Shown here: positions 6,756-30,025 of the stretch, one piece after another
Position numbering within the stretch: position 1 is the first letter of the stretch
How the letters are laid out: each line of letters begins with the position of its first letter
Assembly: GCA_016937695.1 (NCBI GenBank)
Contig: JAFGWC010000109.1
Span: 1 to 32,127, forward strand
Origin: Bacteroidales bacterium
Lineage (GTDB): Bacteria; Bacteroidota; Bacteroidia; Bacteroidales; NBLH01
DNA: 32,127 nt
Direction: 5' to 3'
Made by a program: the position numbers and the translations under genes
The notes under the pieces: model-generated
Database searches by the model: none
The model's input: only the letters and a program-made list of their open reading frames with translations
Told to the model about the DNA's origin: nothing

Positions 6756-6830
6756 AATTAAATTATCAATTATAGATTAAAAATTATAAATTCATAATTT
6801 TTATATTCTAAAGTAAAACTTATTAATAAA

Positions 6831-13344: not shown

Positions 13345-13434
13345 TATTTTATGTTTTTAGCTTTTTAACAAGCGAAAATAAGAAATTTTATCTAAATGCC
13401 TAAAACTTGTATATGAAGAAAAAATCAAATGGAT

Positions 13435-14559
13435 TTATTTTTGTGATATTTCTTTATAGATTCTTAAAATATTTTTTGCTATAGCATTTGGGCTTAAATT
13501 TTTTTCAAAATATTTTAATACTTTTTTTGATTCTTGTTCGATATTTTTTTCTATGTTTTGTTCTAAAGCTGAAATTAATTCAGTGGATTTTCCGGCTGTC
13601 CACAAAGAGCCAATTTGTCCATTTCGTGTTAAAAGATTAAAAGAAGGAATATTTGTTAATATTGGAATACATCCGCAAGACATTGCTTCTATTGCAGCGT
13701 AACCGGAACCTTCTCTATAGCTTCCGGAAATATAAAAATCAGCACTATTGTAATACATTTCTAAATCGTAATGACTTTTTGCTCCTAATAAAATTACATT
13801 TTCAGATAAAATTATGCTTTTATTAATAATAGCTTTTACTTTTTCTTCATCCTGATTTAATCTGTAAATCATATAAAGTTTAGCATTTGGATGTTTTCTA
13901 AAAAAAACTTTAAAAGCCTCTAATACAGATATATATCCTTTTGCTTTTATTAAATTTCCAACCCAAATAAAAATAGGATTTCCTTCTAATTTAGTTTCAT
14001 TTCTGGCAATGTTTCTCTCATGGTAAACAAATGTAGATGAGCTTTCTAAAACATAATCTATTTGCTTTAATTTGATGATATTTTTTTTTATCCATTTAGT
14101 TTCTTGACCTTTTGCGCTAAAAAGAAATTTATCAATTTTAGATAAAGCTATTTTTTGTAAAATAGGAAATTTTGAATTTGCATTTTCGCTGTGATAAATA
14201 ACAAAAATTTTCGAGTCAAATTTTCTTCTGCTAAAGAAATAGTGTTTTAAATAATCATTAATATTATCTAAGATATAAATATCTGCTTTATTGTATTTTT
14301 TTATACTTCTGTAAAAAGAAAAAGGAATACGGTAAAACTTTAATATTGGTGACAAAGTATCTTTATATAAATAGCAATTAACTCCTTTATTCTCAATATG
14401 TTCTGTGTTTTTAAATCTACTTATGAATGACACTTCAAAACCAGATTCTGATAATGCTTTTATCCAAATTTTATATGTAAACCATTTTTTCAATAAAGAA
14501 TCAACATCTTCAAAATCAGGCTTATAATGATTGCTAATTATTGCTACTTTTAACTTCAA
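13435..14559 (-). CDS. GT4-family glycosyltransferase
   Basis: This 374-residue protein has the two-domain GT-B layout. The N-terminal Rossmann strand is KLKVAIISNHYKP. The C-terminal donor domain starts near PIFIWVGNLIKAKGYISVLEAF and includes GSYREGSGYAAIEAMSCGCIPIL, the nucleotide-sugar-binding E-x7-E region. The start is a TTG at 14559: no ATG precedes it in frame close by, and the first strand begins right there. No Shine-Dalgarno site is visible, which is normal in this phylum. It lies 90 bases upstream of the DUF2723 gene on the same strand and 20 bases from the divergent GT4 gene. It probably adds one sugar to a surface glycan or glycolipid; donor and acceptor cannot be told. Confidence 0.9.
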   Translation of the reverse strand: MKLKVAIISNHYKPDFEDVDSLLKKWFTYKIWIKALSESGFEVSFISRFKNTEHIENKGVNCYLYKDTLSPILKFYRIPFSFYRSIKKYNKADIYILDNINDYLKHYFFSRRKFDSKIFVIYHSENANSKFPILQKIALSKIDKFLFSAKGQETKWIKKNIIKLKQIDYVLESSSTFVYHERNIARNETKLEGNPIFIWVGNLIKAKGYISVLEAFKVFFRKHPNAKLYMIYRLNQDEEKVKAIINKSIILSENVILLGAKSHYDLEMYYNSADFYISGSYREGSGYAAIEAMSCGCIPILTNIPSFNLLTRNGQIGSLWTAGKSTELISALEQNIEKNIEQESKKVLKYFEKNLSPNAIAKNILRIYKEISQK

Positions 14560-14579
14560 AATTTGTAATATTGTATGAT

Positions 14580-15740
14580 ATGAAAAAAACTAAAATTTGT
14601 ATAATTATTCGTGGCGGAATTGGCGTTGGATATAAAAACAATGGAGTTCCTGTTTTAACAAAATTTATCGAAAATATATCGGAAAATTTTGATTTAACTG
14701 TTTTTCTTATGATAAAGCCAAACGACGATTTTATTACAAATAAATACAAGATTAAGTTTTTAAACGAAACAAAAAAAAGAAAGATATATTTTACTAAAAT
14801 ACAGTTTTTAAATTTAATTCGTAAGGAACATAAAAAAGAAAAGTTTGATTTGATTCATGCATTTTGGGGACATCCGGCAGGAACTTTTGCTGTTGTTTTA
14901 AAATTTTTATTGAAACTTCCTATAATAATAAGTTTGCAAGGCGGCGATTCTGTTTATATTCCTGATATTAATTACGGATTATTCAAAAATAAATTAAGAA
15001 CAAAATTTCATCATTATATTTATTCAAAAGCTGATATTCTTAATGTTTTAACTAAATATCAGCAAACAAAATTGAAAAGCTTTGGATATTTAAAAAACAA
15101 CATGAAAATCACAATGTATGGCTCTGATAATCAATTGTTTGTTTTCAAAAATAAAAAGTTTGAAAAGCCTTATAAATTTATTGCAGTTGCAGATTTAAAT
15201 AGAGTTAAAGATTACAAAACTTTGTTAAAAGCTTTTAATGAAATTAAAAACCGAACAGATGCAAATTTAACAATACTTGGGATTGATGTTTTAAATGGAG
15301 AAATTCAAAATTTCTCAAAAGAATTAGATTTAAATAATTCAGTTAATTTTGAAGGAATTGTTGAATATAAAAACGTTAATCTCTATTTTCAAAAAGCTGA
15401 TTTTTTATTGCATACATCAGTTTATGATGCTCAGGCTGTTGTTATTTCTGAAGCTCACGCAACAGGAACTGTTGTTTGCGGAACACGTGTTGGTTTAATT
15501 GCCGATTTAGAAAATTATTCAACAATTGCTGCGGATGTTGGTGATTATAAGCAAATTGCAGAAAATGCATTAAGCTTAATTAATAATCCTGAAAAATATT
15601 ACGAATTGCAAAATAATGGTTTGGAATGGTCTAAAAAGTTCGATTTTAACTGGACAATTAAACAATTTGAATCTTATTACAATAAATTAATTTCTGAAGC
15701 TAAAAATAATACCGAACTGTTATCATGTAACAGAGATTAA
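14580..15740 (+). CDS. GT4-family glycosyltransferase
   Basis: This 386-residue GT-B enzyme starts at the ATG at 14580 (MKKTKICIIIRGG); the longer frame from 14541 would overlap the divergent gene. Visible elements are the glycine-rich acceptor-domain start GGIGVGYKNNGVPVL, a mid-protein LQGGDS, the donor-domain start FIAVADLNRVKDYKTLLKAF, FEGIVEYKNVNLYF, and VYDAQAVVISEAHATG, which replaces the usual E-G-x-x-x-x-E block with a D and keeps the second Glu. It is the only plus-strand gene between 9,620 and 26,239 and converges on the minus-strand operon with 18 bases between stop codons. Likely role: sugar transfer in the same surface-glycan context. Confidence 0.9.
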   Translation: MKKTKICIIIRGGIGVGYKNNGVPVLTKFIENISENFDLTVFLMIKPNDDFITNKYKIKFLNETKKRKIYFTKIQFLNLIRKEHKKEKFDLIHAFWGHPAGTFAVVLKFLLKLPIIISLQGGDSVYIPDINYGLFKNKLRTKFHHYIYSKADILNVLTKYQQTKLKSFGYLKNNMKITMYGSDNQLFVFKNKKFEKPYKFIAVADLNRVKDYKTLLKAFNEIKNRTDANLTILGIDVLNGEIQNFSKELDLNNSVNFEGIVEYKNVNLYFQKADFLLHTSVYDAQAVVISEAHATGTVVCGTRVGLIADLENYSTIAADVGDYKQIAENALSLINNPEKYYELQNNGLEWSKKFDFNWTIKQFESYYNKLISEAKNNTELLSCNRD

Positions 15741-15758
15741 AATATCTTAACATGCTAA

Positions 15759-16583
15759 TCATTCGGCATTATACTGATATTTTTTTGCAAAATTTGATAG
15801 CGGTTTAGTATAAATAACAAGCCAAGGAAAAGGCGAATTTTTGCATATAACTTTTTTTAGAATTCTATTATTTATCGGCTTATATAAATACTTGCTATTG
15901 AATATTGATAAGTCATTAAATGTAAGGTGATTATAATAATCTAACATTTCTGAAAATCCAATTGATTTATAATAATCTTCGCTTCTTTTTTGTGCATTTT
16001 GCTTTTCATTTTCGGCATAAAATTTTGTGTCGATTATATGTATTTCTGCATTTAATACCGATATTTTTTTTAATTGTGCAAATAGCTTTTCAATATTAGT
16101 AAAATATTGCAAAGAAGCATTGAAAACTATAATATCAAAAACATTTTCATTAAAGATGTCATCAAAAATATCAGCATAAATAAAAGCCAGATTTTCTTTT
16201 TTAAAAACTCTTGCAGCTTGTTCCAACTCGATTTTATTAACATCTAATCCAACAACAAAACTTTCTTTTATTTCGGATAATTTATTTAAAAACCAGCCAT
16301 TTCCGCAACCAATTTCCAATATTTTTAAGTTTGAATTCTTTTTTTTTAGATATCTTAAAAATCTGTTTGTTGATTTTTTCCTAATTTTCCATTCTTTACT
16401 GTAAATATGATTTTTTCCAGTTTCGGGAAGAATTTTTACTTCATCATCATTTAAAATTCTTTTTTCGCTTTTGCGCAGATTAATGTAATTTTCTTCAAAA
16501 TCATTAAATTTATGAGTTTCTGAAAGATATATTACTTGATTATCCGAATAGAAATTTGGATTTTTTATAATATTATTTATCAT
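15759..16583 (-). CDS. class I SAM-dependent methyltransferase (last gene of the operon)
   Basis: This 274-residue protein has the Rossmann methyltransferase core: motif I ILEIGCGNG (88-96), an acidic end of strand 2 (VVGLDVN), YADIF as motif II, and FDIIVFNASLQYF as motif III/IV. The N-terminal 85 residues are basic and polar and may determine the substrate. Its ATG overlaps the stop of the preceding methyltransferase gene by 11 bases, which implies translational coupling. The substrate is unknown; small-molecule or sugar O-methylation is the most common role of such enzymes in biosynthetic clusters. It ends in TGA, one of the few UGA stops here. Confidence 0.9.
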   Translation of the reverse strand: MINNIIKNPNFYSDNQVIYLSETHKFNDFEENYINLRKSEKRILNDDEVKILPETGKNHIYSKEWKIRKKSTNRFLRYLKKKNSNLKILEIGCGNGWFLNKLSEIKESFVVGLDVNKIELEQAARVFKKENLAFIYADIFDDIFNENVFDIIVFNASLQYFTNIEKLFAQLKKISVLNAEIHIIDTKFYAENEKQNAQKRSEDYYKSIGFSEMLDYYNHLTFNDLSIFNSKYLYKPINNRILKKVICKNSPFPWLVIYTKPLSNFAKKYQYNAE

Positions 16584-17247
16584 GATTTTTTTCTATTTTA
16601 TAAATAATAAAATTTTCGGAGAATTGTTTTTCTTCATGTATATTGCTTATTATTAACTTATTACAATATGCAGTTTCATTGATTTTTTTAATATTGGCAT
16701 TTTCCGATAAAATCATTAAAACATTAGTTTTTGAAATATTTATTTGCCATAATTGTTGAAATAGTTTTTGAAAATATTCAAAATTTTCGCCACAAAACCA
16801 TGCTTGTTCCGATACATTTTCCGGATTTTTATTAAAAAATGGCGGATTTATATAAATGTAATCAAAATCTATTTTTGGAATATTTTTAAACAAATCAGAC
16901 AAGAAACATTGAATTTGCAAATTATATTTATTTTTAGTTTCGATTAAGCCTTTAATTGCATTTTCATTAATATCAGAAGCATAAACTTTTGCATTTTTTT
17001 TTGCTGCCATCAAAGAAACAATTCCGCTGCCACAACCTAATTCAAGAAATGTTTTGTTTTCAATATCAATTTTCTCAATATATTTTAAAAATATTTTTGT
17101 TGCAAAAGTCCATTTCGGTGAAAAAACACTTGGATTAATTACAATTTTTAAATTTTTGTAACGATATATATGCTTTCTGCCACTTTTATATTTATATAAT
17201 TTTTGCCAAAAAGGCGCTAATATCTTCTTTATCAAATTATTCAGCAT
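16573..17247 (-). CDS. SAM-dependent methyltransferase with NPPF motif
   Basis: This 224-residue methyltransferase shows motif I FLELGCGSG (67-75), an acidic strand-2 end (YASDIN, about 89-94) and N134-P-P-F137. An (N/D)PP(Y/F) motif is typical of enzymes that methylate planar nitrogens, such as PrmC/HemK or RsmC, and VNPSVFSPKW before motif I also recalls that group. In this operon a small-molecule or protein N-methylation role is possible. A stray rRNA or release-factor enzyme is less likely, because it overlaps both neighbours by 11 bases and so belongs to the unit. Confidence 0.88.
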   Translation of the reverse strand: MLNNLIKKILAPFWQKLYKYKSGRKHIYRYKNLKIVINPSVFSPKWTFATKIFLKYIEKIDIENKTFLELGCGSGIVSLMAAKKNAKVYASDINENAIKGLIETKNKYNLQIQCFLSDLFKNIPKIDFDYIYINPPFFNKNPENVSEQAWFCGENFEYFQKLFQQLWQINISKTNVLMILSENANIKKINETAYCNKLIISNIHEEKQFSENFIIYKIEKNHDK

Positions 17248-18766
17248 AAAATCCTTCTGTTTCGGGTTTTCTATATTTCCAGATTTTTTGTAAAAATCTA
17301 AGCTCGTAAGGAAATGAATAAAAATTTAAAGCATATCTGCAAAATGCAAATAATTGAAATATAAATTTTTTAAATCCTTTAATTTTAAAATCAGAAATGC
17401 TTGGATATCTGGCATTTAAAACAGTTTCAAAATTTTTAACTCTGTTTATCATTTTTGAATTTAGCCACGGCGTAAGCGGATTTTTTCTTAAATCAAAATT
17501 TTCCCAAGCCGGATTTAGCCAATCTTCAATGTTCGACGGAAATTTAAATCCCGATTTTATTAATTCGTCAGAAAGCTCGTTTTCAGTTGTAGGAATAGGA
17601 CTATAAATATAAATTATTATTTCGGCCGATTTATTTATTTTTTTTATTTGCTTAATAAATTTGATGTCGGAGTTTATTTGTTTCCAAACATTTTTTTCAT
17701 CATTATCAGGCATTCCAAGTACAAATGATAATTCCGGAATTATTCCGGCATTTTTCGCTTTTACAACAAATTCTTTTATCGAATTTCCTGATACAGTTCC
17801 GCCTTTGTTAATCTTTTTAAGCATTTCATCGTCGCCGGTTTCTGCTCCCCAAAAAATCATTTTACAACCGGATTTGCTTAATAAATTTAACTCTTGTTCC
17901 GAATAATTATTTAATGTATCAATTCTTCCTTCTGCCCACCACGTAAAATTCTCATTTTCAATTAGTTTGCAAAATTCAAGAACTCGTTTTTTCGATGTAA
18001 AAAAATTATTATCTGTAAATTCTATTGAATCTATTCCGTAAATATTTTTAAACTCTATTATTTGATGGTGCATTTTTTTTGCTGATTTTGCTATCCAATT
18101 TCCTTTAAAAATAGGAACAACAGCACAAAACGAACAAAAAAACGGACATCCAAAACTTGAATGATAACTAAAAGTTCGTTTTCCTAAAAAAGTTTTTGAA
18201 ATGTAATTATTAATCGGATAAAAAGTATTTAAATGCTGATAAGGATATTCAGAAAGTTTATCTAAATCGAAATTAATATTGGTTTTATTTGTGATAATTT
18301 TTGATTCTTGTTTAAAAATCAGATTTTCAATATTCTCTAAATCTTTATAATTATCTGTTTTTAAGGCTTTTATTAATTCAGGAAAAGCAATATCACCTTG
18401 TCCGGAAATTATAAAATCTACAAAATCGGAATTTATAACTGTATTTGCATGAATTGAAGGAAAATATCCGCCTCAAATTGTTATTAAATCAGGAAATTTT
18501 TGCTTTACAATTTTTGTAAACGGAATTGCTTGTTTTGTTTGCGGACCAGGCATTACTGTAACTGCCAAAAAACTATATTTGCCTGATTCTAAATACTTTA
18601 TAATCACATTTAGTGGATTTTTTTCAATATTTCCATCAACAAAAACATAATTAAAAACGCTGTGTATTGAAGCTGCAATTTGTAAAATTGAATTTGGCAA
18701 TCGGTGTTTTGAATTAGCACTTTTTGGATTAACAAAAATTATTCCGCCTTTTACTTTATCTGTCAT
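17237..18766 (-). pseudogene. B12-binding-type radical SAM protein interrupted by an in-frame TGA
   Basis: The frame runs 510 codons from the ATG at 18766 to the TAA at 17237, broken only by TGA at 18475-18473 (codon 98). Translation resumes without a frame change. The codon lies between FPDLITI and GGYFPSIH, where related proteins often have a hydrophobic or Trp residue before the conserved GG, so TGG to TGA is the simplest origin. Downstream come the rest of the N-terminal B12-binding-like domain (FIISGQGD), then the radical SAM cluster motif C207-P-F-F-C211-S-F-C214, and WGAETGDDEML in the TIM barrel. The family uses a 4Fe-4S cluster and SAM for C-methylation, oxidation or ring chemistry. 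The 97-residue and 278-residue pieces are unlikely to work separately. The gene lies 10 bases after the sulfotransferase and overlaps the next methyltransferase by 11. Confidence 0.85.
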
Positions 18767-18776
18767 AAATTTATTT

Positions 18777-19934
18777 TTACAAGCATTTTTTTATAATTTC
18801 TTTTATTTTTAAAACCATATTTTGAAAACAAAATTGAGATTTAATAGTAATTTTATCAAATAAGTTTACATTTTCTAAACTATAAGCAAGTTTTTTTGAC
18901 GTGTTTTTAAATATTACAGATATTCTTTTTTTATCATAATCAGACAAAAGCTTTAATTTGTTTTTTTGAGCTGTTTGTGTTGAAAATGAGCTGTTTGTAT
19001 CTGAAATCATATTTTCAGAAAAGCTGCTTATCATAATTTCATCATATTTAATATTTAAAAATTCAGCAATTTGCTTTTGAATTTCCTCTTTGTTTTTGAG
19101 CAGATTTTCATATTTTACTAAAAAAACGTTTTTTTGTTTTTCATATTTAATTTCAGAAATTAATTTGTGCGATTTATATAAATTTATCAAAATTAAATTT
19201 TCCTGCTTTTTAGTAAAAACATCAATATTTGAAGTTATTTTTTTTAAAGAAGCATAAACATTTATTGGATTTCTATAAAGCATAATTATCTTAGCATCAG
19301 GATAATATAAAAAAATATTTTTTAAAAACAATTCGCTAAAAGGTGTTTTGTCAAGCCAATATTTAATATTTGAGTCAATTTTTCCGTTTCCTAAAAAACT
19401 AATGTGTGCAAGTGCTAATGCAGATAATTCGTGTATGTTTTTTTCTTTGATTATTTTAAACCAAGTAAAAAAATATCGTGTAAATTCAACATATGGCGAA
19501 TAATTTTCATTTGAACGCCCGAAAATAAAAGTTTTTATATTAATTCCGCCTTTAACTAAACCGTAGAAATAGTACTTTAAAACGGTTTTTTTAAAATTTT
19601 CATTTGTTTTTTGTTTCCAAAAATTTCGTGCAAATCCAATTTCTGTGTGTAAACTAAATATTTCTTTATTTCCGCTAATTAAATTTTTATAAAAAGTAGT
19701 TCCGCTTCTTGCAGCTCCACAAATAAAAATTGCATTTTTTGAAATGCTTAATCCTTTTTCTAAATTTGCTTTATCAGTCTCATAATCAGAGAGTTTAATG
19801 GTTTCATAATAAATAAAATCAATCCAATTATTAATTGAATTTAAATATTGGTCTGAAACTTTTTCAAAATTTGCAGGAATGTTTTTTTCAACTATTTTTT
19901 CAAGCCTAACTATTTCTTTATAATTGATATTCAT
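18777..19934 (-). CDS. PAPS-dependent sulfotransferase family protein
   Basis: This 385-residue protein carries both signatures of sulfotransferases that use PAPS. The 5'-phosphosulfate loop is ICGAARSGTTFYK (about 71-83), and the 3'-phosphate-binding strand is DAKIIMLYRNPINVYASLK near 215-235. Such enzymes move a sulfuryl group onto hydroxyls or amines of lipids, glycans or small molecules. A 65-residue helical N-terminal extension precedes the P-loop-like site. It overlaps the ABC transporter gene by 17 bases and is followed after 10 bases by the TGA-interrupted radical SAM gene. The sulfate acceptor is probably the operon's product, but this is inference. Confidence 0.9.
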   Translation of the reverse strand: MNINYKEIVRLEKIVEKNIPANFEKVSDQYLNSINNWIDFIYYETIKLSDYETDKANLEKGLSISKNAIFICGAARSGTTFYKNLISGNKEIFSLHTEIGFARNFWKQKTNENFKKTVLKYYFYGLVKGGINIKTFIFGRSNENYSPYVEFTRYFFTWFKIIKEKNIHELSALALAHISFLGNGKIDSNIKYWLDKTPFSELFLKNIFLYYPDAKIIMLYRNPINVYASLKKITSNIDVFTKKQENLILINLYKSHKLISEIKYEKQKNVFLVKYENLLKNKEEIQKQIAEFLNIKYDEIMISSFSENMISDTNSSFSTQTAQKNKLKLLSDYDKKRISVIFKNTSKKLAYSLENVNLFDKITIKSQFCFQNMVLKIKEIIKKCL

Positions 19935-21669
19935 AATTGTTTAGTTTGTAGTTTTCAATTTTGAATATCTTATTGCAGTTTTTCAAAGTGTTTTTTCTGT
20001 GCGAAACAAAAATTATAGTTTTTCCTTCTTTATTAAGCTTTTCAAGTAATTTTATTATAGAATCTTCGGTTTCAAAATCAAGATTTCCGGTTATTTCATC
20101 TAAAAGCAGCAAATCTGTTTTTTTATATAAAACTCTGGCAAGAGCAAGCCGTTGTTTTTGTCCTTCAGATATTTTGCTGCCGTTTTCGCCAAGAATTGTA
20201 TTTTTTCCGTTTGGTAAACTTTTTGCCCAAAAATCTAGCTCAACCAAAGCTAAAACATCATTTAATTTATTGTGGTTAATTTCTGATTTTTTGATTCCCA
20301 AAGCTATATTTTCACAAATACTTCCATTAAAAATGTATGAGTTTTGAGTTACATAACCAATTTGTTTATACCAGTTTTTAACATTTTTTATTGATAAAAA
20401 TTTATCGTCTATTTTAAGAATATTGTCTTGAATTATTAATCCGGAAAGGATATTTAGTAAACTTGTTTTTCCTGAGCCTGATTTTCCAATAATTCCAATA
20501 AAATCGCCTTTTTCAACATCAAAATTTAAATTTTTAAAAACTTGCTGATTTGTATCATTATACGAAAAGTTAAAATTTTTAAGTTTTATTGATTTTTTGA
20601 ATTTCAAATTTTCATTTTCTGTTCCAGTTGCGTTTTCTATACTATTGTTATTCAGCTCTTTAACTATTTCGACAGAATACCAAGCTGTTTTTACTTTAAT
20701 TATATTCATATAAGTTTTATTTAATGATGGCAAAAGTTTATATGAAATTGCAATAACTGTGCTTATTAAAATATTTAAAGAATTATTATTATCGATGTAA
20801 TATTTACCAAAAACTACAAGTAAAATTAGCATAAGTACAATAATAATTTCAACTGCACGACGAGGAATTTCAAGAATTACAAAAGTTTTTGATCTTATTT
20901 TTTGATAAGAGTGATTATTTTTCAGATATTTTTTTATAAAGTAAGATTGTTTGTTGAATAACCTAATATCAGTAAAACCTTTAACACTGTTATAAAGAAT
21001 TTTTAAAATTTCGTTATGTGTAATTTTATTTGTTTGTGCAATTTCGGCTACTTTTTTTCTTTTTATAAAATAGAACAAATACATTAATGGTATGTAAATC
21101 AATATCAGCAATATAGCTATTTTAAAATTAACAAATATTACAACAATTATTATAATAAAAAACACAATTAGCTCAGAAAATATATTAATTATCGAGCGTA
21201 TTATTTGATAAGAATAATCGACAGGCGCTTCAAATATTTCGCGAATGATTATTGAAGAACTTTTGTTTGCAATATCCTGAAAATCAGAAATATAAAATTT
21301 AATTAAGGCTTTTTCTGATATTTCGGTTACTATTTTATAAGTATATTTTGCAATAAATTCTGATATTTTAATATTTAATAAGTTCTTTACAATAAAAAAC
21401 AATACAATAAAAACTAATAAAAATCTGATAAAATTTATTGTCGAAATATTTAAAAAAGAAATAATGCTTATAAAATATCTGTTTTGTGATGCAATTTCAG
21501 GATTTAAAACAAGTAATATAAGCGGAATTATTGTTGCAATACTAAATATATCAAGAAAAGCACTTATTAAAATATAAATTAGTGATTTTACACTTTCTTT
21601 TTGGCTGTTTTTATCTAAAAGATAAAAAAGTGTTTTAAATGTTTCAAAATATTTAGTTTTAATTCGCAT
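19918..21669 (-). CDS. ABC exporter, fused permease and ATPase
   Basis: This 583-residue half-transporter has about six N-terminal transmembrane helices (about 30-330) followed by a nucleotide-binding domain. Visible motifs are Walker A GKSGSGKT (395-402), Q-loop VTQNSYIF, signature ISEGQKQR (500-507, Glu in place of the first Gly of LSGGQ), Walker B LLLLDEITGNLD and the H-loop FVSHRK. The domain order and length match the MsbA/PglK type, which dimerise and flip lipids or lipid-linked oligosaccharides or export peptides. In this operon it is the best candidate to move the finished product across the inner membrane. It overlaps the genes on both sides (11 and 17 bases), so its dose is tied to the biosynthetic enzymes. 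Confidence 0.93.
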   Translation of the reverse strand: MRIKTKYFETFKTLFYLLDKNSQKESVKSLIYILISAFLDIFSIATIIPLILLVLNPEIASQNRYFISIISFLNISTINFIRFLLVFIVLFFIVKNLLNIKISEFIAKYTYKIVTEISEKALIKFYISDFQDIANKSSSIIIREIFEAPVDYSYQIIRSIINIFSELIVFFIIIIVVIFVNFKIAILLILIYIPLMYLFYFIKRKKVAEIAQTNKITHNEILKILYNSVKGFTDIRLFNKQSYFIKKYLKNNHSYQKIRSKTFVILEIPRRAVEIIIVLMLILLVVFGKYYIDNNNSLNILISTVIAISYKLLPSLNKTYMNIIKVKTAWYSVEIVKELNNNSIENATGTENENLKFKKSIKLKNFNFSYNDTNQQVFKNLNFDVEKGDFIGIIGKSGSGKTSLLNILSGLIIQDNILKIDDKFLSIKNVKNWYKQIGYVTQNSYIFNGSICENIALGIKKSEINHNKLNDVLALVELDFWAKSLPNGKNTILGENGSKISEGQKQRLALARVLYKKTDLLLLDEITGNLDFETEDSIIKLLEKLNKEGKTIIFVSHRKNTLKNCNKIFKIENYKLNNYEYQL

Positions 21670-23036
21670 ATTTTTCTTTTATCATTTTAAATCTGTAATA
21701 AATTGATTTTATTATTAAAATAATTCCTTTTTTACTAAAATATTTTTTGAGAGCTAATTTCGACAAATTAACTTCGGCATGCAGTTTTGCATTTGCATAA
21801 CTGTAAAATTTATTTGAATATGGTTTTTCAAAAATCAAATCGGCATCAGCCACATTTTCCCAATCGAAATTAAAAATCTTTTCTTTTATTTGATTAAACA
21901 AATCGGTTCCAATTATCGGATATGTATTTGTTGTTAAAACAGAATCGGGTTTTGCTTTTTTTAAGTACTTGATTGTTAAGTTAATATCTTTAATTTTTTC
22001 TTTCGGATATCCAAACATAATAAATGTTCCGGTTTCTATATTTTTTTGTTTACAATAATTTATTGCATCAATTACTTGTTCAATTTTAACTCGCCTGTCC
22101 ATTGCGTCAAGTATTTTTTGAGAACCACTTTCTGCACCAATCCATATTTTATAGCAACCTGTTTTTTCAAGCAAGTCAATTGTCTCATTATCAAGTTTAT
22201 CTGCTCTGCTTATGCATTCGTATTTTATTTTTAAATTTTCATTTTTTAGCTCTTGATTAAATTCGTTAAGCCATTTTTTATCTATTGTAAATACATCATC
22301 TACAAACCAAATATAATCAAACTCATATGTATTTTTCAAGCCAACTATCTCATTTACAGCACTTTAGCGTTTCTTCTTCTGTATGATTTTCCAAAAACAG
22401 CTTTACTGCACCATTTACATGAAAACGGACAACCACGCATTGTGCTGATTGCTATAGAATTATAGCCATGAAATTCTTTCCAAACTTTTAAATATTTGTT
22501 TATATCAATTTTATTTCTTGTAGGATTTGGTAATTCGTTAATATCCAGAAAATTAGATTCTTCAGTAAGTTTTATTTTATTATCAATTTTATCAAAATAA
22601 GCAATATTTGGTATATTATTAATTTTAAAATCTGATTTTATAATATCAACAAAAGTTTTTTCGCCTTCCCAATTACCACAATATCAGCATTATGCAAAAT
22701 ATATTTTTCGGCGTTATATTTTACATCTGGTCCGCCAATAATTATTTTTGTATTTTTTAAATTTTCATTATTTCTGATATATTTTGAGATTTCAATAAAA
22801 TTTCGCCTTGTTTTAAAGTTTAAATAAACGCCTAAAACATCTGGGTTTAAGTTATTTAGCTGCTTTTTAAATTCTGTTTTATTCGAAAAAGTGTTATCAA
22901 TAATTTCGGTTTTAATATTATTTTTTTCGGCAAAAGCAGCAATATAAAGCAAACCCATTGGCGGATATGGTTTCATAATTTTTTGCTCTGCTTTGTCTTC
23001 TTCTAAAAAATATAAATGTGTTAATAATATTTTCAT
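21659..23036 (-). pseudogene. B12-binding-type radical SAM protein with two frameshifts
   Basis: Three reading frames must be joined. The first (ATG at 23036) encodes PYPPMGLLYIAAFAEKNN and ends IIIGGPD...ADIVVIG, then goes out of frame at 22667-22671. Adding one base there restores GEGEKTFVDII. The middle frame has MRGCPFSCKWC with the cluster cysteines near residues 203, 207 and 210. It is lost again at about 22361-22366, where one more base restores AVNEIVGLKNTYEFDYIW. The last piece has WIGAESGSQKILDAMDRR. With two added bases the gene becomes exactly 460 codons, close to the 479-residue intact paralog at 23866. Both lesions sit at short runs (GGG and AAA), so an assembly error is as likely as true decay. 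Confidence 0.85.
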
Positions 23037-23048
23037 TTGATAATAATT

Positions 23049-23840
23049 TTATTCTTGTTTTAATTTTAGTTCAATTAAAAAATGATCGGAAAAAATTGCA
23101 AAAAGCTTAAGTTTTCCCAATATTTTATCAATTTTAATTAAAAACTCAAGTGTTTTTTTATGTCTTTCAAAAAAAGAGTTCAAATAAGAAGGCGGAACAG
23201 CAAAATTAACAGGCATTTTTGTTTCAATTTGATAATCTTTAAATGCTTTTGCTATTTTTTTTGGCGAATAATAATATGTATCTATCTCATTATCACCAAT
23301 TTTAACAGATATTTTTTTATTTAAAAATCTTCGAAAAGCTGTTTTAAAATCTAATTTAAATGAATAATATAAAATTTCCCAAAGGCAAAATTTTGACATT
23401 ATAACCATAATTATGCTTCCTTCGGGTTTTATGTTTTTTTTTATTTCTGATGAAAATTTAATAAGCGAATCGATTGAAACACAATTAATTCCGCCAAAAT
23501 TTGAAAACACATAATCAAATTTTCCGCTTGATTTTAGCTCGGAAATATCTAAAATATCCAGTTTTTGAAGTTTAATTTTATCTTTAAATTCCGGTTTTAT
23601 TTTAAGCTTACAAAAATTAAGCATTTCAGCAGAAATATCAGTAGCTAAAATATTTGCGCCATTTTCTGCAAAAAACACAGCATCTTCGCATGTTCCGCAA
23701 TTTAATTCAAGAATATATTTTTCGTGTAAAGTCTTCTTTTTCAGATAATTCCAAACTGATATTCGTTGAGCTTTACCAACAGCAGTTTTAGTAAAAGTTT
23801 TATCGTATTTATAAGCTATTGAATCGAAAACTTCGCTCAT
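23049..23840 (-). CDS. class I SAM-dependent methyltransferase with altered motif I
   Basis: This 263-residue methyltransferase begins FDSIAYKYDKTF and has KAQRISVWNYL ahead of motif I. Later blocks are ATDISAEML (strand 2), YVFSNFGGINCVS (motif IV) and GSIIMVIMSKFCLWEILY. This pattern is familiar from methyltransferases found beside radical SAM genes in Bacteroidota. Motif I reads ILELNCGTCED (43-53): Cys51 stands where most relatives have the third glycine (GTGED). The change is one base (GGC to TGC) and may weaken SAM binding. It lies 12 bases before the frameshifted radical SAM gene and 25 after the intact one. The substrate is unknown. Confidence 0.9.
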   Translation of the reverse strand: MSEVFDSIAYKYDKTFTKTAVGKAQRISVWNYLKKKTLHEKYILELNCGTCEDAVFFAENGANILATDISAEMLNFCKLKIKPEFKDKIKLQKLDILDISELKSSGKFDYVFSNFGGINCVSIDSLIKFSSEIKKNIKPEGSIIMVIMSKFCLWEILYYSFKLDFKTAFRRFLNKKISVKIGDNEIDTYYYSPKKIAKAFKDYQIETKMPVNFAVPPSYLNSFFERHKKTLEFLIKIDKILGKLKLFAIFSDHFLIELKLKQE

Positions 23841-23865
23841 ATAACATTGATTAACTGTGCTTTAA

Positions 23866-25305
23866 CTATGATTTTACATTCAATAAAAATTTGTATTTAA
23901 TGGCATAAATCAAAAAATATATAAACTTAGCAGCTGATTTATAAAATATCAAATTAAATATTTGAAATTTAAGAATAGTAAAAAAGCTTTTCTTTGCTTT
24001 AAAAATAAGGTGAACGTATCTGTGTAAAGTTTTATAATATTGTGATGAGTAATTATTTTTAAACATTAAATCCAAATCGTCAGAATCTGTCCAATTTTCT
24101 TTATTTTTCAAATCATTTTTAACCATTTCGTAAAAAGGAGTTCCCGGAAGCGGATACGAAACAGATATTCCAATTTTTTCGGGCATTAATCGTAATATCA
24201 TTTTTATAGTTTTTTTAATATCATCTTTTGCTTCGCCCAAATAACCAAATTGAATAAAAAATGCTGCATTTATTTTGTTATTTTTTAAAAGTTTCCTTGA
24301 TTTTTCAACTTGTTCAATTGTAATTCCTTTATTCATTGCGTCAAGAATTTTTTGAGATCCTGATTCTACGCCAAACCAAACTTCTTTTGCGCCGGAATTT
24401 GCTAAATTCTTAACATACTCATTATCAGTTAATAAATCAGCTCTTGACTGAAAAATATATTTGATTTTAATTTTTCTCTCATTTAAAATATTGTTAAATT
24501 CTTCTACCCATTTTTTGTGAAGCCCGAATATATCATCACAAAACCAAAATTCGTCAGGCTTAAATTTATTTTGCAAAAATTCTAATTCATCAACAATATC
24601 AGTTGGAGTTCTGTAATTATATGTATATCCAAAAAGAGGTTTTGCACACCAATTACATTTATAAGGGCAACCGCGCGACATTGCCACATTTAAAACAAAA
24701 CGACCGTGTTTATTTTTCCAAATTGATTTATATTTTTCAACATCAATTAAATCCCAAGCCGGTTTTGGTAATTTATCTAAATCAATAATTTTTGGCCTTT
24801 GCAGAGTTTTTATTAATTTGTTATTTTCGTTAAATATTAAACCATTTATTTCTGATAGTTTATCTCTATTATCAACATTTTCAATTACTTCCAAAAGAGT
24901 TTGTTCGCCTTCGCCCGGAATAACAAAATCAGCGCCATTTTCTAAATACTGTTCAAATCTGTCTGTTGCATCAGAGCTTGAAACTATTACTTTGCAATTA
25001 TACTTTTTACCGATTTTAATTATTTCAAAAGCTGCTTCACGCATATTTGTAAGGCACATTTTTGTTAAATAATTAAATTCATCATCGTAAATAACCAAAA
25101 AATCGGGTTTAAATTCTTCAATTTTTGGAATTATCTCATTTGTGCTGTATAGTAAATTTGTGTCAAAAACATCAACATTATATCCTTTTTCTCTAATAAA
25201 AGATGCTGCATACAAAGTGCCCAAAGGCGGATATGGCTGCATCATTTTCCATCGTTTTTCATCAAATTTATAGAAAAAAGAATGTGTAAAAAGTACTTTA
25301 TACAT
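23866..25305 (-). CDS. B12-binding-type radical SAM protein (intact)
   Basis: This 479-residue protein is the only undamaged radical SAM enzyme of the three. The N-terminal domain (about 1-150) has the B12-binding fold pattern (PYPPLGTLYAASFIREKGYNVDVFD, FVIPGEGEQTL) but lacks a DxHxxG cobalamin-ligand motif, and it has SSSDAT where many relatives have GGPHAT. The radical SAM barrel starts with MSRGC213-P-Y-K-C217-N-W-C220 and includes EVWFGVESGSQKILDAMNKG. The family includes anaerobic cyclases, C-methyltransferases and hopanoid- or bacteriochlorophyll-modifying enzymes; the reaction cannot be chosen from sequence. It is a paralog of the frameshifted gene at 21659 (shared ESGSQKILDAM). It probably works on the same pathway intermediate as the methyltransferases beside it. 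Confidence 0.93.
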   Translation of the reverse strand: MYKVLFTHSFFYKFDEKRWKMMQPYPPLGTLYAASFIREKGYNVDVFDTNLLYSTNEIIPKIEEFKPDFLVIYDDEFNYLTKMCLTNMREAAFEIIKIGKKYNCKVIVSSSDATDRFEQYLENGADFVIPGEGEQTLLEVIENVDNRDKLSEINGLIFNENNKLIKTLQRPKIIDLDKLPKPAWDLIDVEKYKSIWKNKHGRFVLNVAMSRGCPYKCNWCAKPLFGYTYNYRTPTDIVDELEFLQNKFKPDEFWFCDDIFGLHKKWVEEFNNILNERKIKIKYIFQSRADLLTDNEYVKNLANSGAKEVWFGVESGSQKILDAMNKGITIEQVEKSRKLLKNNKINAAFFIQFGYLGEAKDDIKKTIKMILRLMPEKIGISVSYPLPGTPFYEMVKNDLKNKENWTDSDDLDLMFKNNYSSQYYKTLHRYVHLIFKAKKSFFTILKFQIFNLIFYKSAAKFIYFLIYAIKYKFLLNVKS

Positions 25306-25345
25306 CTAGTTTTAGCTTAGTTTAATATTATATTGTTTTTCAAAT

Positions 25346-26239
25346 TCATAAATCTTTTTTTTGATATATTTCCAATATTTTTAATTGATCATTTTTTCTT
25401 GCTCTATACATAATTCTATCATTTGTAACTTTAGACATTTTTTTTATTTCTTCACTACTCAGAGAAAGTTTTTTTATCGTTCTTTTTTGTCTGTATCTAG
25501 TTAATTTTCTAATTGTTAATTCAATTAAATTTCCAAAAAAATTATTTAATAAAAACTCTAAAAACCTTTTTAATTTTCCTGATTTATTTATAATTACTTC
25601 GTTTAACATTTTATTAGGATAATTAGGAAAATATTCATTTATCCATTTATGTCTTTCAATAAAATTTTCAATTACATTTTCGTTATAAACAGGAATACTG
25701 GCAACTATTTCATAAGCGACATAAATATTTTTATCAGAAAAAGTATATTCTGAAGTAATAAAATGATTAAAACAACTAAATTTCTCCGACTTTTTAAGAA
25801 ACCGTGTAATAAATAATCTATACAAAATTAAAACAGCTCTTACTAACCAAATTCTTCCTTTTTCAGTTAAAATAATATAATCAACATCAGCACCTTTATA
25901 CGCATTTCCTTTTGATGTTGAACCGGATATTGCAATGGCTCTAACATAAGGAAATCGCCCTAAAAATTTTGCCATTTTTTTAGAAATATAGATATATTTT
26001 TCTGCTCTAATATTTCTAATTTTTCGGTCTTCAATTCCATTCATTTCTCTAACTGAAAAAAAATTATTCTTTTGATAAAAAATTTTATCATGAACAAGTT
26101 TTTCTATTTCATTATTTATCTCAACACTTGTAATATCCTGTATTTTAAGTCTTTCCATAATTTCCGCTTCAGTAAGAGGATAATTAAATATATCAAAATA
26201 CAAAACAGTTAAGACTATTTCCTTTGCAATATCATTCAT
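25346..26239 (-). CDS. nucleotidyltransferase-domain protein (first gene of the operon)
   Basis: This 297-residue protein starts at the ATG at 26239; a TTG two codons upstream (26245) is less likely. Residues about 8-68 resemble a winged-helix domain (ILTVLYFDIFNYPLTEAEIM). A polymerase-beta-type nucleotidyltransferase site follows: SGSTSKGN (about 105-112) and D118-V-D120, the metal-binding acid pair. The rest is helical and basic. Relatives include aminoglycoside-type and MNT-type transferases; the actual substrate, a small molecule or protein, is unknown. Its 40-base gap to the radical SAM gene and its leading position make it part of the operon, possibly activating a substrate with a nucleotide. 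It ends in TGA. Confidence 0.85.
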   Translation of the reverse strand: MNDIAKEIVLTVLYFDIFNYPLTEAEIMERLKIQDITSVEINNEIEKLVHDKIFYQKNNFFSVREMNGIEDRKIRNIRAEKYIYISKKMAKFLGRFPYVRAIAISGSTSKGNAYKGADVDYIILTEKGRIWLVRAVLILYRLFITRFLKKSEKFSCFNHFITSEYTFSDKNIYVAYEIVASIPVYNENVIENFIERHKWINEYFPNYPNKMLNEVIINKSGKLKRFLEFLLNNFFGNLIELTIRKLTRYRQKRTIKKLSLSSEEIKKMSKVTNDRIMYRARKNDQLKILEIYQKKDL

Positions 26240-26530
26240 AAGCAAAAAATAAAAACAGAAATATAATTAAAAATAAATCAAAACAAATTCTTTAAAAAAT
26301 CGCTTCAAAAAAATAAATTATCGCAAACATTATGTTTAAAAAGGTAAAATTCAGAAGAAAACTTAAAAATGAAAAACCATATAATTGCACCACAAAATCA
26401 GTTACTTACTTAACTTTTCAATAACTTATTAACAAGTAAACAAAAAAACCAACAAAATTCATAATTTTACAAAGCTAATATGCTCCCTGCAGTTTAGTAT
26501 AATATTCACATTTTCAGCTATTTATAACAA

Positions 26531-29500
26531 ATGAAGGAATTTACACATTTACATGTCCATACTCAATATTCAATTTTAGATGGTGCTGCAAGTATTAAAG
26601 GCTTAATTGAAAAAGCAAAAGCCGATAATATGAAAGCTATTGCCATTACTGAGCATGGAAATATGTTTGGAGTAAAAGAATTTCATAACACTGCAAGAAA
26701 AGCAGGAATAAAACCTATTTTGGGTTGCGAAGCTTATATCTCAAAAAGAAACCATACTGATAAAGATAAAAACAACGAACTCGATAAAAAGAGAAACCAT
26801 ATCATTATTCTTGCGAAAAATTTAAAAGGATATCATAATCTGATTAAATTAATTTCAAAATCATGGATTGATGGATATTATTACAAACCAAGAATTGATA
26901 AAGAATTACTTTTTAAGCATCATGAAGGATTAATTGTTTCGAGTGCATGCCTTGGTGGAATTGTTCCTCAGCATATATTAAAAGGAGAAATTGACAAAGC
27001 AAAAGAAAGTATTCTGGAATTTAAAGAAGTATTTGGTGATGATTTTTATCTTGAACTTCAAAGACATAAAGCCGTTGGCAGACCTCCTTTAAACGACACT
27101 TTCGAAAAACAGGAAATTGCAAATGCCGAAATATTAAAATTAGCCCAGGAATTTAATGTAAAATGCATTGCAACTAACGATGTCCACTTTTTAAATGCTG
27201 AAGATGCCGAAGTTCACGATTTACTCATTTGTCTTAATACCGGAAAAGACATTGAAGATCCATCGAGAATGCGATATACAGGCGAAGAGTATTTGAAAAC
27301 TCAAAAAGAAATGAATGAGCTTTTTGCTGATATTCCCGAAGTTCTTGAAAACACGATGGAAATAGCCGAAAAAGTTGAAGAATACGAGCTTGATCAAAAA
27401 CCAATTATGCCCGATTTTGCTCTTCCTCAGGATTTTACAAACGAAGATGATTATCTTAAACATATAACATATTTAGGCGCACAAAAAAGATATAAAGATT
27501 TAACCCCAGAAATAAAGGAACGTATTGATTTTGAGTTAAATACAGTTAAAAACATGGGTTTTCCCGGATACTTTCTTATCGTTTGGGATTTCTTAAAAGC
27601 GGCACGCGAAATAGGCGTTTGGGTTGGTCCGGGACGTGGTTCTGCTGCCGGTTCTGTTGTTGCATATTGCTTAAAAATCACAAATATCGATCCGCTTAAA
27701 TACAATCTGCTTTTTGAGCGTTTCCTAAATCCGGATCGTATTTCAATGCCCGATATTGATATCGATTTTGATGACGACGGAAGAGCAAAAGTTCTTGAAT
27801 GGGTTACTAAAAAATACGGAAAAGATAAAGTTGCAGCAATTATTACTTTTGGTACAATGGCCGCCAAAATGGCTGTTAGAGATGTTGCCAGAGTTTTAAA
27901 ACTTCCACTTCACGAAGCAGACAGAATTGCAAAAATGATTCCCGGAAAACCCGGAATGACTTTAGAAAAAGCATATAAAGAAGTGCCGGAATTTAAAAAC
28001 GAACGAGAAGCCGGAGCACCATTAATAATTAAAACACTTCAATTCGCAGAAAAACTAGAAGGTTCTGTTCGTCAAAGTGGCGTACATGCCTGCGGAATTA
28101 TTATTGGTAAAGAAAGCCTCGATAACTATATTCCTCTAAGTGTTGCTAAAGATTCCGACTTATACGTTACTCAATTTGATGGCAATCATGTTGAACCCGT
28201 TGGAATGCTTAAAATGGACTTTCTTGGATTAAAAACTTTGTCCATTATTAAAGAAGCAGTCGAAAATATTAAAAAATCTAAAAATATTGATATTGATATA
28301 GATGAAATTCCATTAGAAGATAAAATCACTTACGATCTATTTGCAAAAGGTGAAACCACCGGAATATTCCAATTCGAGTCTGACGGAATGAAAAAACATT
28401 TAAAAGGCTTAAAACCAAACAGATTTGAAGACCTTATCGCGATGAATGCTCTTTATCGTCCGGGACCAATGGAATATATTCCCAGCTTTATTAAAAGAAA
28501 AAACGGTAAAGAAACTATAAAGTACGATTTGCCGGAAATGGAAGAACATCTTAAAGAAACATACGGAATTACCGTTTATCAGGAACAAGTAATGTTACTT
28601 TCTCAAAAACTTGGCGGATTTACAAAAGGAGAAGCCGATACTTTGCGAAAAGCAATGGGAAAAAAGAAATTTGATTTACTGGAAAAATTAAAACCTAAAT
28701 TTCTTGATCAAGGTGCGGAAAAAGGACACGACAAAAAAATACTTGAAAAAATATGGAAAGATTGGGAAGCTTTTGCTCAATATGCTTTCAATAAATCACA
28801 TTCAACTTGTTATGCATATTTAGCATATCAAACAGCATATCTTAAAGCACATTATCCGGCCGAATTTATGGCTGCCGTTTTAAGCCGTAATTTTTCAAAC
28901 ATCGATAAAATAGGCATTTTCATGGATGAATGCAAAAGAATGGGTTTTGATGTTCTTGGTCCTGATGTTAATGAAAGCGAGACAAGATTTTCTGTAAATA
29001 AAAAAGGTGCTTTACGATTTGGAATGGCTGCAATTAAAGGAGTTGGACAAGCAGCAGTTGAACATATTATTGAAGAAAGAGAAAAAAACGGAGAATTTAA
29101 AAATATTTACAACTTTGCCGAAAGATTAAATTTAAGAACTGTTAGTAAAAAAAACATCGAAGGACTTGCAATTGCTGGTGCTTTTGACAGTTTTGAAGAA
29201 ATAAACAGAAGTCAGTTTTTTGAATCGGCAAACGGAAGCGGTTCTTTTATTGAAGATTTAATAAAATATGCTAATATTTTACAAGGCGAACAATTACTTC
29301 CTCAGCAATCTCTTTTTGGAGAATCTGATAGCATTGAAATAAAAAAACCTGAAATACCACAAGTTACAGAATGGGATAAAATTGAACGCCTAAACAAAGA
29401 AAAAGAGCTTATTGGAGTTTATCTTTCTGCTCATCCGCTTGACGATTATAAACTTGAAATGAAAACTTATTGTAATTGCGAAATTACACATTTTAAAGAC

Positions 29501-30025
29501 TTAAAATCCTTACAAGGCAGAGATTTAAAAATAGCAGGAATTGTTACAAATGTTGAGCATAAAACAACAAAAAACGGAAAACCATACGGAAGTTTTACTA
29601 TTGAAGATTATTCAGATTCATACAAATTTACGCTTTTTGGAAACGATTATCTCGACCAAAAAAAATATTTTACAAAAGGCTATCAAATTGCCCTAAAAGG
29701 TAAAATCCAGCCCAGATTTAATAATCCTGAAAACGAATTAGAATTTAAAATTTCAAATATAGATATGCTTTCAGAAATAAAAGATAATGTGTTTAACAGC
29801 CTTGCAATTAAAATTCCGGTAGATAATTTAACAAGCGATTTAATTTCAGAAGTTGAAGAATTAGCCGAAAATAACAAAGGAAATGCAATGCTTAAATTTT
29901 TAATTTACGAACCAAATACAAAAATTTGGGTACAAATGTTTTCAAGAACACATAAAGTAAACATTTCCAAAGACTTAGTTAAATTTTTAGATAAAAAAAC
30001 TGAATTAGAATACAAAATATTTTAA
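26531..30025 (+). CDS. dnaE: DNA polymerase III subunit alpha
   Basis: This 1164-residue replicative polymerase extends the DNA chain at the replication fork. The N-terminal PHP domain begins EFTHLHVHTQYSILDGAA (H6, H8, H10). The C-family catalytic site is MPDIDIDFDDDGR with Asp408 and Asp410, and the third acid is Asp563 in KMDFLGL. A probable internal clamp-binding motif QQSLF lies at 925-929. An OB-fold (about 1000-1080; LKIAGIVTNVEHK, YGSFTIEDY) follows, then a C-terminal tau-binding region. The length matches DnaE of the E. coli type and there is no intein. It is transcribed away from the radical SAM operon across 291 bases and closed by two hairpins. Confidence 0.98.
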   Translation: MKEFTHLHVHTQYSILDGAASIKGLIEKAKADNMKAIAITEHGNMFGVKEFHNTARKAGIKPILGCEAYISKRNHTDKDKNNELDKKRNHIIILAKNLKGYHNLIKLISKSWIDGYYYKPRIDKELLFKHHEGLIVSSACLGGIVPQHILKGEIDKAKESILEFKEVFGDDFYLELQRHKAVGRPPLNDTFEKQEIANAEILKLAQEFNVKCIATNDVHFLNAEDAEVHDLLICLNTGKDIEDPSRMRYTGEEYLKTQKEMNELFADIPEVLENTMEIAEKVEEYELDQKPIMPDFALPQDFTNEDDYLKHITYLGAQKRYKDLTPEIKERIDFELNTVKNMGFPGYFLIVWDFLKAAREIGVWVGPGRGSAAGSVVAYCLKITNIDPLKYNLLFERFLNPDRISMPDIDIDFDDDGRAKVLEWVTKKYGKDKVAAIITFGTMAAKMAVRDVARVLKLPLHEADRIAKMIPGKPGMTLEKAYKEVPEFKNEREAGAPLIIKTLQFAEKLEGSVRQSGVHACGIIIGKESLDNYIPLSVAKDSDLYVTQFDGNHVEPVGMLKMDFLGLKTLSIIKEAVENIKKSKNIDIDIDEIPLEDKITYDLFAKGETTGIFQFESDGMKKHLKGLKPNRFEDLIAMNALYRPGPMEYIPSFIKRKNGKETIKYDLPEMEEHLKETYGITVYQEQVMLLSQKLGGFTKGEADTLRKAMGKKKFDLLEKLKPKFLDQGAEKGHDKKILEKIWKDWEAFAQYAFNKSHSTCYAYLAYQTAYLKAHYPAEFMAAVLSRNFSNIDKIGIFMDECKRMGFDVLGPDVNESETRFSVNKKGALRFGMAAIKGVGQAAVEHIIEEREKNGEFKNIYNFAERLNLRTVSKKNIEGLAIAGAFDSFEEINRSQFFESANGSGSFIEDLIKYANILQGEQLLPQQSLFGESDSIEIKKPEIPQVTEWDKIERLNKEKELIGVYLSAHPLDDYKLEMKTYCNCEITHFKDLKSLQGRDLKIAGIVTNVEHKTTKNGKPYGSFTIEDYSDSYKFTLFGNDYLDQKKYFTKGYQIALKGKIQPRFNNPENELEFKISNIDMLSEIKDNVFNSLAIKIPVDNLTSDLISEVEELAENNKGNAMLKFLIYEPNTKIWVQMFSRTHKVNISKDLVKFLDKKTELEYKIF

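Follow-up and report, generated by a model that had tools for sequence, protein, structure and literature searches.

The 32,127-nucleotide contig JAFGWC010000109.1 of a Bacteroidales bacterium (assembly GCA_016937695.1), here called the window, carries an operon at 15759-26239 that is one copy of a widespread and apparently undescribed biosynthetic cluster. The cluster is real and conserved, the copy in the window looks damaged, and we infer the class of its product: with a probability of about 0.5, the cluster builds an exported lipid-linked glycan or glycolipid, and in this genome, where the radical S-adenosylmethionine (SAM) genes rSAM-A and rSAM-B are interrupted, the pathway is truncated or absent. 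This reading is supported by a gene neighborhood that is conserved when approached from two independent anchors, the radical SAM genes rSAM-C and rSAM-B.

Gene content and conservation of the operon

All nine coding regions lie on the minus strand, with the ATG of the first gene at 26239. Neighboring genes overlap by 11 (MT1/MT2), 11 (MT2/rSAM-B), 17 (SulfoT/ABC) and 11 (ABC/rSAM-A) bases, and the remaining gaps are 10, 12, 25 and 40 bases. An original prediction, made from the DNA letters alone, had given this same layout, and it was borne out when the coordinates were rechecked. The predicted content was likewise recovered by Pfam scan as three methyltransferases, three radical SAM genes, a Sulfotransfer_3 protein, an ABC exporter and an NTP_transf_2 protein barely above its cut-off, and two of the radical SAM genes also scored above the Pfam cut-off for the B12-binding domain. 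The count of nine is valid only after joining the broken pieces of rSAM-A and rSAM-B, whose interruptions the prediction had not reported. Pfam also confirmed the predicted flanking genes, two GT4 glycosyltransferases and a DUF2723 protein (the family is now TMEM260-like). The operon genes and the two glycosyltransferases are as follows.

25346-26239, minus strand: NT, winged-helix and Pol-beta-type nucleotidyltransferase, 297 aa, core gene (PF01909 barely above cut-off)
23866-25305, minus strand: rSAM-C, B12-binding-domain radical SAM protein, 479 aa, core gene, intact (PF04055 and PF02310 above cut-off)
23049-23840, minus strand: MT3, class I SAM methyltransferase, 263 aa, core partner of rSAM-C (Pfam Methyltransf_25)
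21659-23036, minus strand: rSAM-A, B12-binding-domain radical SAM gene with two -1 frameshifts (three overlapping open frames)
19918-21669, minus strand: ABC exporter, PglK/MsbA-like half transporter, 583 aa (PF00005 and PF00664 above cut-off)
18777-19934, minus strand: SulfoT, sulfotransferase of the 3'-phosphoadenosine 5'-phosphosulfate (PAPS) type, 385 aa, lineage-specific (PF13469)
17237-18766, minus strand: rSAM-B, radical SAM gene with an in-frame TGA (one frame open on either side of it)
16573-17247, minus strand: MT2, HemK/MTS-like methyltransferase, 224 aa, partner of rSAM-B (PF05175, 64.6 bits)
15759-16583, minus strand: MT1, class I SAM methyltransferase, 274 aa (PF13847)
14541-15740, plus strand: GT4-type glycosyltransferase (gene GT2) adjoining the operon end (PF00534, 75.1 bits; family in 4 loci of the sample described below)
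13435-14559, minus strand: GT4-type glycosyltransferase (gene GT1) of the wider neighborhood (PF00534, 80.9 bits; family in 23 loci)

A scan of species genomes with rSAM-C found at least 568 relatives, and neighborhoods were taken from the best-matching ones, a sample picked by rSAM-C itself. The best 80 of these relatives all belong to Bacteroidota (one labelled Kapaibacterium) or Ignavibacteriota. The core that recurs across both phyla consists of seven families, found in the sampled loci as MT3 (79 loci), NT (76), rSAM-B (46), MT1 (40), rSAM-A (39) and MT2 (25) in addition to rSAM-C. MT3 adjoins rSAM-C in 77 loci (median gap -4), NT adjoins rSAM-C in 49 (median gap -8), and MT2 adjoins rSAM-B in 22; with the exception of NT, the core genes share the strand of rSAM-C almost invariably. 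An Ignavibacteriaceae locus holds NT, rSAM-C, MT3, one unassigned gene, rSAM-A, MT1, a GT4 gene, rSAM-B and MT2 in one run, and the window has all seven families on one strand within 15759-26239, two of them interrupted. Chance falls far short of explaining this arrangement, since scores of other genomes have the same families side by side. The original prediction had proposed looking for the gene set in other genomes as its check, and the set indeed recurs.

To offset the selection on rSAM-C, a second and separate sample of the phylum was anchored on rSAM-B. Each of the 13 other genomes found in this way has rSAM-C, and in 11 it lies no more than about 10 kb away. As rSAM-C is rare, occurring in 22 of 394 other genomes of the phylum (about one in twenty Bacteroidota sampled), this association is not due to chance.

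Two architectures were seen. In the Flavobacteriaceae, the Ignavibacteriota and the window, NT comes first, and many copies have rSAM-A directly after MT3. In the Chitinophagaceae and their relatives, a SPASM-type radical SAM gene (family 7) usually lies between MT1 and rSAM-C, and NT is inverted, often beside a WcaJ-like sugar phosphotransferase (family 10, 14 loci). Two related-looking families of about 310-325 aa also recur in Chitinophagaceae-type copies (L042:910-1854 and L096:5048-6019), one of them with a sub-threshold match to flavin reductases.

No relative of rSAM-C was found in viral contigs, and neither curated families nor solved structures supplied a name for the pathway. No description of the cluster was found in the literature searched, which left most subscription journals out of reach and does not prove newness. 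The gene set and its tight overlaps recur in cultured strains of Flavobacterium, Chitinophaga, Niastella and Ohtaekwangia, which makes the pathway genetically testable.

Interruption of rSAM-A and rSAM-B

The reading frame of rSAM-A slips by -1 twice, near 22668-22670 and 22363-22365, leaving open frames at 22638-23036, 22354-22683 and 21659-22363, and the same split was reproduced with an intact relative as query. In rSAM-B, which shares 57% identity with an intact relative across 502 aa, the single internal TGA lies at 18473-18475, in a column that is Trp in 37 of 37 full-length relatives. No second, intact copy of either gene was found elsewhere in the genome. Reading of TGA as Trp was considered and rejected: the intact operon genes use TGG for all 26 of their Trp codons, TGA is the stop codon of two of those genes, and none has it in frame.

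The lesions could be sequence or assembly errors in an operon that is intact. Two of the three are one-base losses beside short runs (GGG, AAA), and all remaining parts align at 39-57% to intact relatives, as this explanation would have it; the third, however, is not a lost base but a stop codon in frame. We regard error as the unlikely explanation and recent, genuine decay as the more likely one, by about 3 to 1 in our judgement, because none of 35 strong ABC-domain matches in the same genome has an internal stop and the other seven genes of the operon have unbroken frames. With two of three radical SAM genes interrupted, the operon as present therefore probably does not make the full product, and the pathway is apparently being lost from this genome via its radical SAM steps.

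A lipid-linked glycan or glycolipid as the probable product class

The cluster is best read as making a lipid-linked glycan or glycolipid for export, because its relatives add genes for glycosyltransferases, sugar phosphotransferases, ABC exporters, O-antigen-ligase-like proteins and deacetylases. Among 108 non-core proteins encoded within the clusters were 18 of family GT4, 7 GT87, 6 PMT_2, 5 of family GT2, 4 ABC, 4 arylsulfotransferase-like and 3 capsule-type NKWYS proteins. The relatives' clusters also hold O-antigen-ligase-like and polysaccharide deacetylase genes, and some carry Bac_transf or Wzy_C genes. Two membrane families (35 and 36) resemble flippases by eye; having no Pfam or NCBIfam match, they were not counted as such. 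Also in line with this reading, PglK is the named family closest to the window ABC protein, and the fold of rSAM-C lies nearest those of OxsB, AprD4, MgmA and TsrM.

In the proposed pathway, glycosyltransferases would assemble the glycan, and the B12-binding-type radical SAM enzymes would remodel its sugar or lipid at unactivated positions by C-methylation, deoxygenation or ring change. The three class I methyltransferases would cap the product, the nucleotidyltransferase would activate or nucleotidylate an intermediate, and the PglK-like ABC protein would flip the product across the membrane, with the sulfotransferase adding a lineage-specific decoration. In this genome the interrupted rSAM-A and rSAM-B would likely leave a truncated pathway, or none. 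The conserved partners in this scheme are the nucleotidyltransferase, the rSAM-C/MT3 and rSAM-B/MT2 pairs, and the glycan genes around them.

Several observations weigh against this reading. Pfam scans of the window genes recognized no initiating sugar phosphotransferase, polymerase, ligase or flippase, and the operon does not have the makeup of a Wzx/Wzy-type locus. The glycan genes differ between relatives and could belong to adjacent loci. The best NCBIfam match of the ABC protein, PglK, stays below its cut-off (272.1 bits against 1000), and the lesions in rSAM-A and rSAM-B could be sequence errors. Finally, no copy of the cluster has a known product. The gene set, its conservation, the lesions and the sequence motifs are observed, and the product class, the order of the steps and the loss of function are inferences. 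Where the original prediction had left a choice among a lipid, a glycolipid or a small molecule, we favor a lipid-linked glycan or glycolipid. We would extend this, at somewhat less than even odds, to an undescribed pathway present throughout Bacteroidota and Ignavibacteriota, with three or four radical SAM enzymes and three methyltransferases reshaping a lipid-linked sugar into a surface glycan or glycolipid, optionally sulfated, whose chemistry would be new to these bacteria. If true, this would be a radical-SAM-rich biosynthetic class free of polyketide, peptide-synthetase or RiPP (ribosomally synthesized and post-translationally modified peptide) markers, in a highly abundant bacterial phylum.

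Radical SAM enzymes, nucleotidyltransferase and alternative products

The two Pfam models, a CxxxCxxC motif present in 83 of 83 family members, and the fold together identify rSAM-C as a B12-binding-domain radical SAM protein. Its predicted model has a mean pLDDT (predicted local distance difference test) of 86.5 and matches OxsB (Z 30.0), AprD4 (Z 29.0), MgmA (Z 27.6) and TsrM (Z 26.8). The DxHxxG motif is absent from all three radical SAM families of the operon; enzymes of this type often lack it. The reactions of these four matched enzymes span methylases to a sugar diol dehydratase, and AprD4 has a B12-binding domain and does not use cobalamin. Given this range, neither the reaction of rSAM-C nor its use of cobalamin can be read from its fold. 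When NCBIfam equivalogs (BchE, HpnJ, HpnR, PhpK, ladderane, AprD4 and MgmA) were tested by curated cut-off, rSAM-C reached none, scoring at best 168 bits against the BchE cut-off of 481, and intact relatives of rSAM-A and rSAM-B likewise fell below the radical SAM cut-offs. No protein of the operon reaches a curated NCBIfam equivalog cut-off. The original description, of an operon for biosynthesis and export without a match among named pathways, is supported.

The GS...DxD motif is present in 74 of 76 members of the NT family. The NT model is confident and starts with a winged helix at the N terminus (63 residues matching 7ne9 at Z 10.7) that could bind DNA or simply form contacts. No sequence relatives were found among solved structures, and the fold neighbors are common winged helices plus weak nucleotidyltransferase matches (E above 0.001).

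These matches raise the possibility of a diffusible small molecule, for example aminoglycoside-like or nucleoside-type, that would be methylated, in some cases sulfated, and carried out of the cell by the ABC protein. OxsB and AprD4 act on a nucleotide and an aminoglycoside, respectively, the weak fold matches of NT include AadA-type nucleotidyltransferases, and amidohydrolase genes (family 11) recur in the clusters. We consider such a product unlikely, if the foremost of the other candidates: no genes for biosynthesis of a sugar-cyclitol or nucleoside core were recognized in the window, the relatives carry membrane-linked glycan genes, and the NT fold matches lie above the E value just given. 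Modification of a membrane lipid other than a glycan, in the manner of the radical SAM systems for ladderanes, hopanoids or tetraethers and with the head group sulfated here, would fit the sub-threshold matches of the radical SAM proteins to HpnJ and to the ladderane lipid B12/radical SAM family. The curated cut-offs for these are not reached, however, no cyclase, acyl-carrier or isoprenoid gene was recognized in the window, and glycosyltransferase genes recur, making this product less probable still. A RiPP pathway, with a small peptide as substrate of the radical SAM enzymes, is highly improbable despite matches below threshold to RiPP radical SAM families such as ApyD, the SPASM-type genes in relatives and the ABC exporter, as the largest gap in the window operon (40 bases) has no room for a precursor gene and 106 intergenic gaps of at least 90 bases across the loci hold no conserved small open reading frame.

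Sulfation

SulfoT combines a PF13469 domain above cut-off (69.5 bits against 27) with 5' and 3' phosphate-binding motifs (GAARSGTTF, YRNP), as expected of a PAPS-dependent sulfotransferase. The fetched relative loci contain no SulfoT ortholog, and weak matches (23-28% identity) occur in 2 of 40 related genomes. The original idea of sulfation as part of the core product is not upheld; the sulfotransferase of the window is a lineage-specific add-on. Several copies in Flavobacteriaceae carry other sulfotransferase families, and sulfate may be a recurring yet optional decoration. An ASST-type arylsulfotransferase at L034:18893-20386, with family members in L033, L056 and L076, and a Sulfotransfer_1 protein at L047:14765-15598 sit near the position equivalent to that of SulfoT, although the families are unrelated.

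Origin of the window copy and surrounding features

rSAM-C was found in 3 of 392 other genomes of the same order and in none of the five listed genomes of the same genus, and in its family tree the window protein groups on a long branch with an uncultured Bacteroidia sequence. The GC content in 2-kb windows is 0.23-0.27 over 13-26 kb and 0.27-0.35 on either side. In G001, a genome of the same genus, the neighbors of dnaE are a divergent class II tRNA synthetase gene and YfhO, and the operon is not there. The region 13400-26500, including both GT4 genes, looks like an acquired island; horizontal gain is plausible, and repeated loss elsewhere may be the alternative. At 5205-9356 and 26531-30025 of the window, the tRNA synthetase/YfhO pair faces dnaE, and in G001 it faces away from it, so that with respect to dnaE the block is inverted or displaced. 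Another genome of the order, G008, has between dnaE and the tRNA synthetase gene a 1924-aa protein that by eye resembles a two-module peptide synthetase (L137:8380-14154).

Rfam detected no riboswitch in the window or in five relatives; its sole match was a Flavo-1 RNA (RF01705, 58.9 bits) between rSAM-B and MT2 in Flavobacterium lotistagni (L046:20121-20197). Matches to the Bacteroidota promoter consensus were rarer than expected by chance. At 327-2546 the window encodes an apparently secreted nuclease, with endonuclease I, Ig-like and lamin-tail domains and a Por-type secretion tail.

Comparison with known systems

rSAM-C shares domain order, the CxxxCxxC motif and its fold over most of its length with OxsB, AprD4, MgmA and TsrM, while identity is just 17-23% and the gene company differs. 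HpnJ and HpnH of bacteriohopanepolyol synthesis and the ladderane systems likewise use radical SAM enzymes with B12-binding domains on lipid or sugar-lipid substrates; the window matches their profiles below the curated cut-offs and has no hopene or ladderane genes. SulfoT shares its fold family and PAPS motifs with the Sulfotransfer_3 (NodH-NoeE-type) sulfotransferases of glycolipid decoration, although it scores 20.8 of 500 bits for NoeE and no Nod-factor genes are present. The ABC protein stays below the NCBIfam cut-off for PglK and no pgl glycosylation genes were recognized in the window, yet it is similar over its full length to this flippase of lipid-linked oligosaccharides in Campylobacter N-glycosylation, matching the PglK structures 5c73 and 6hrc from end to end.

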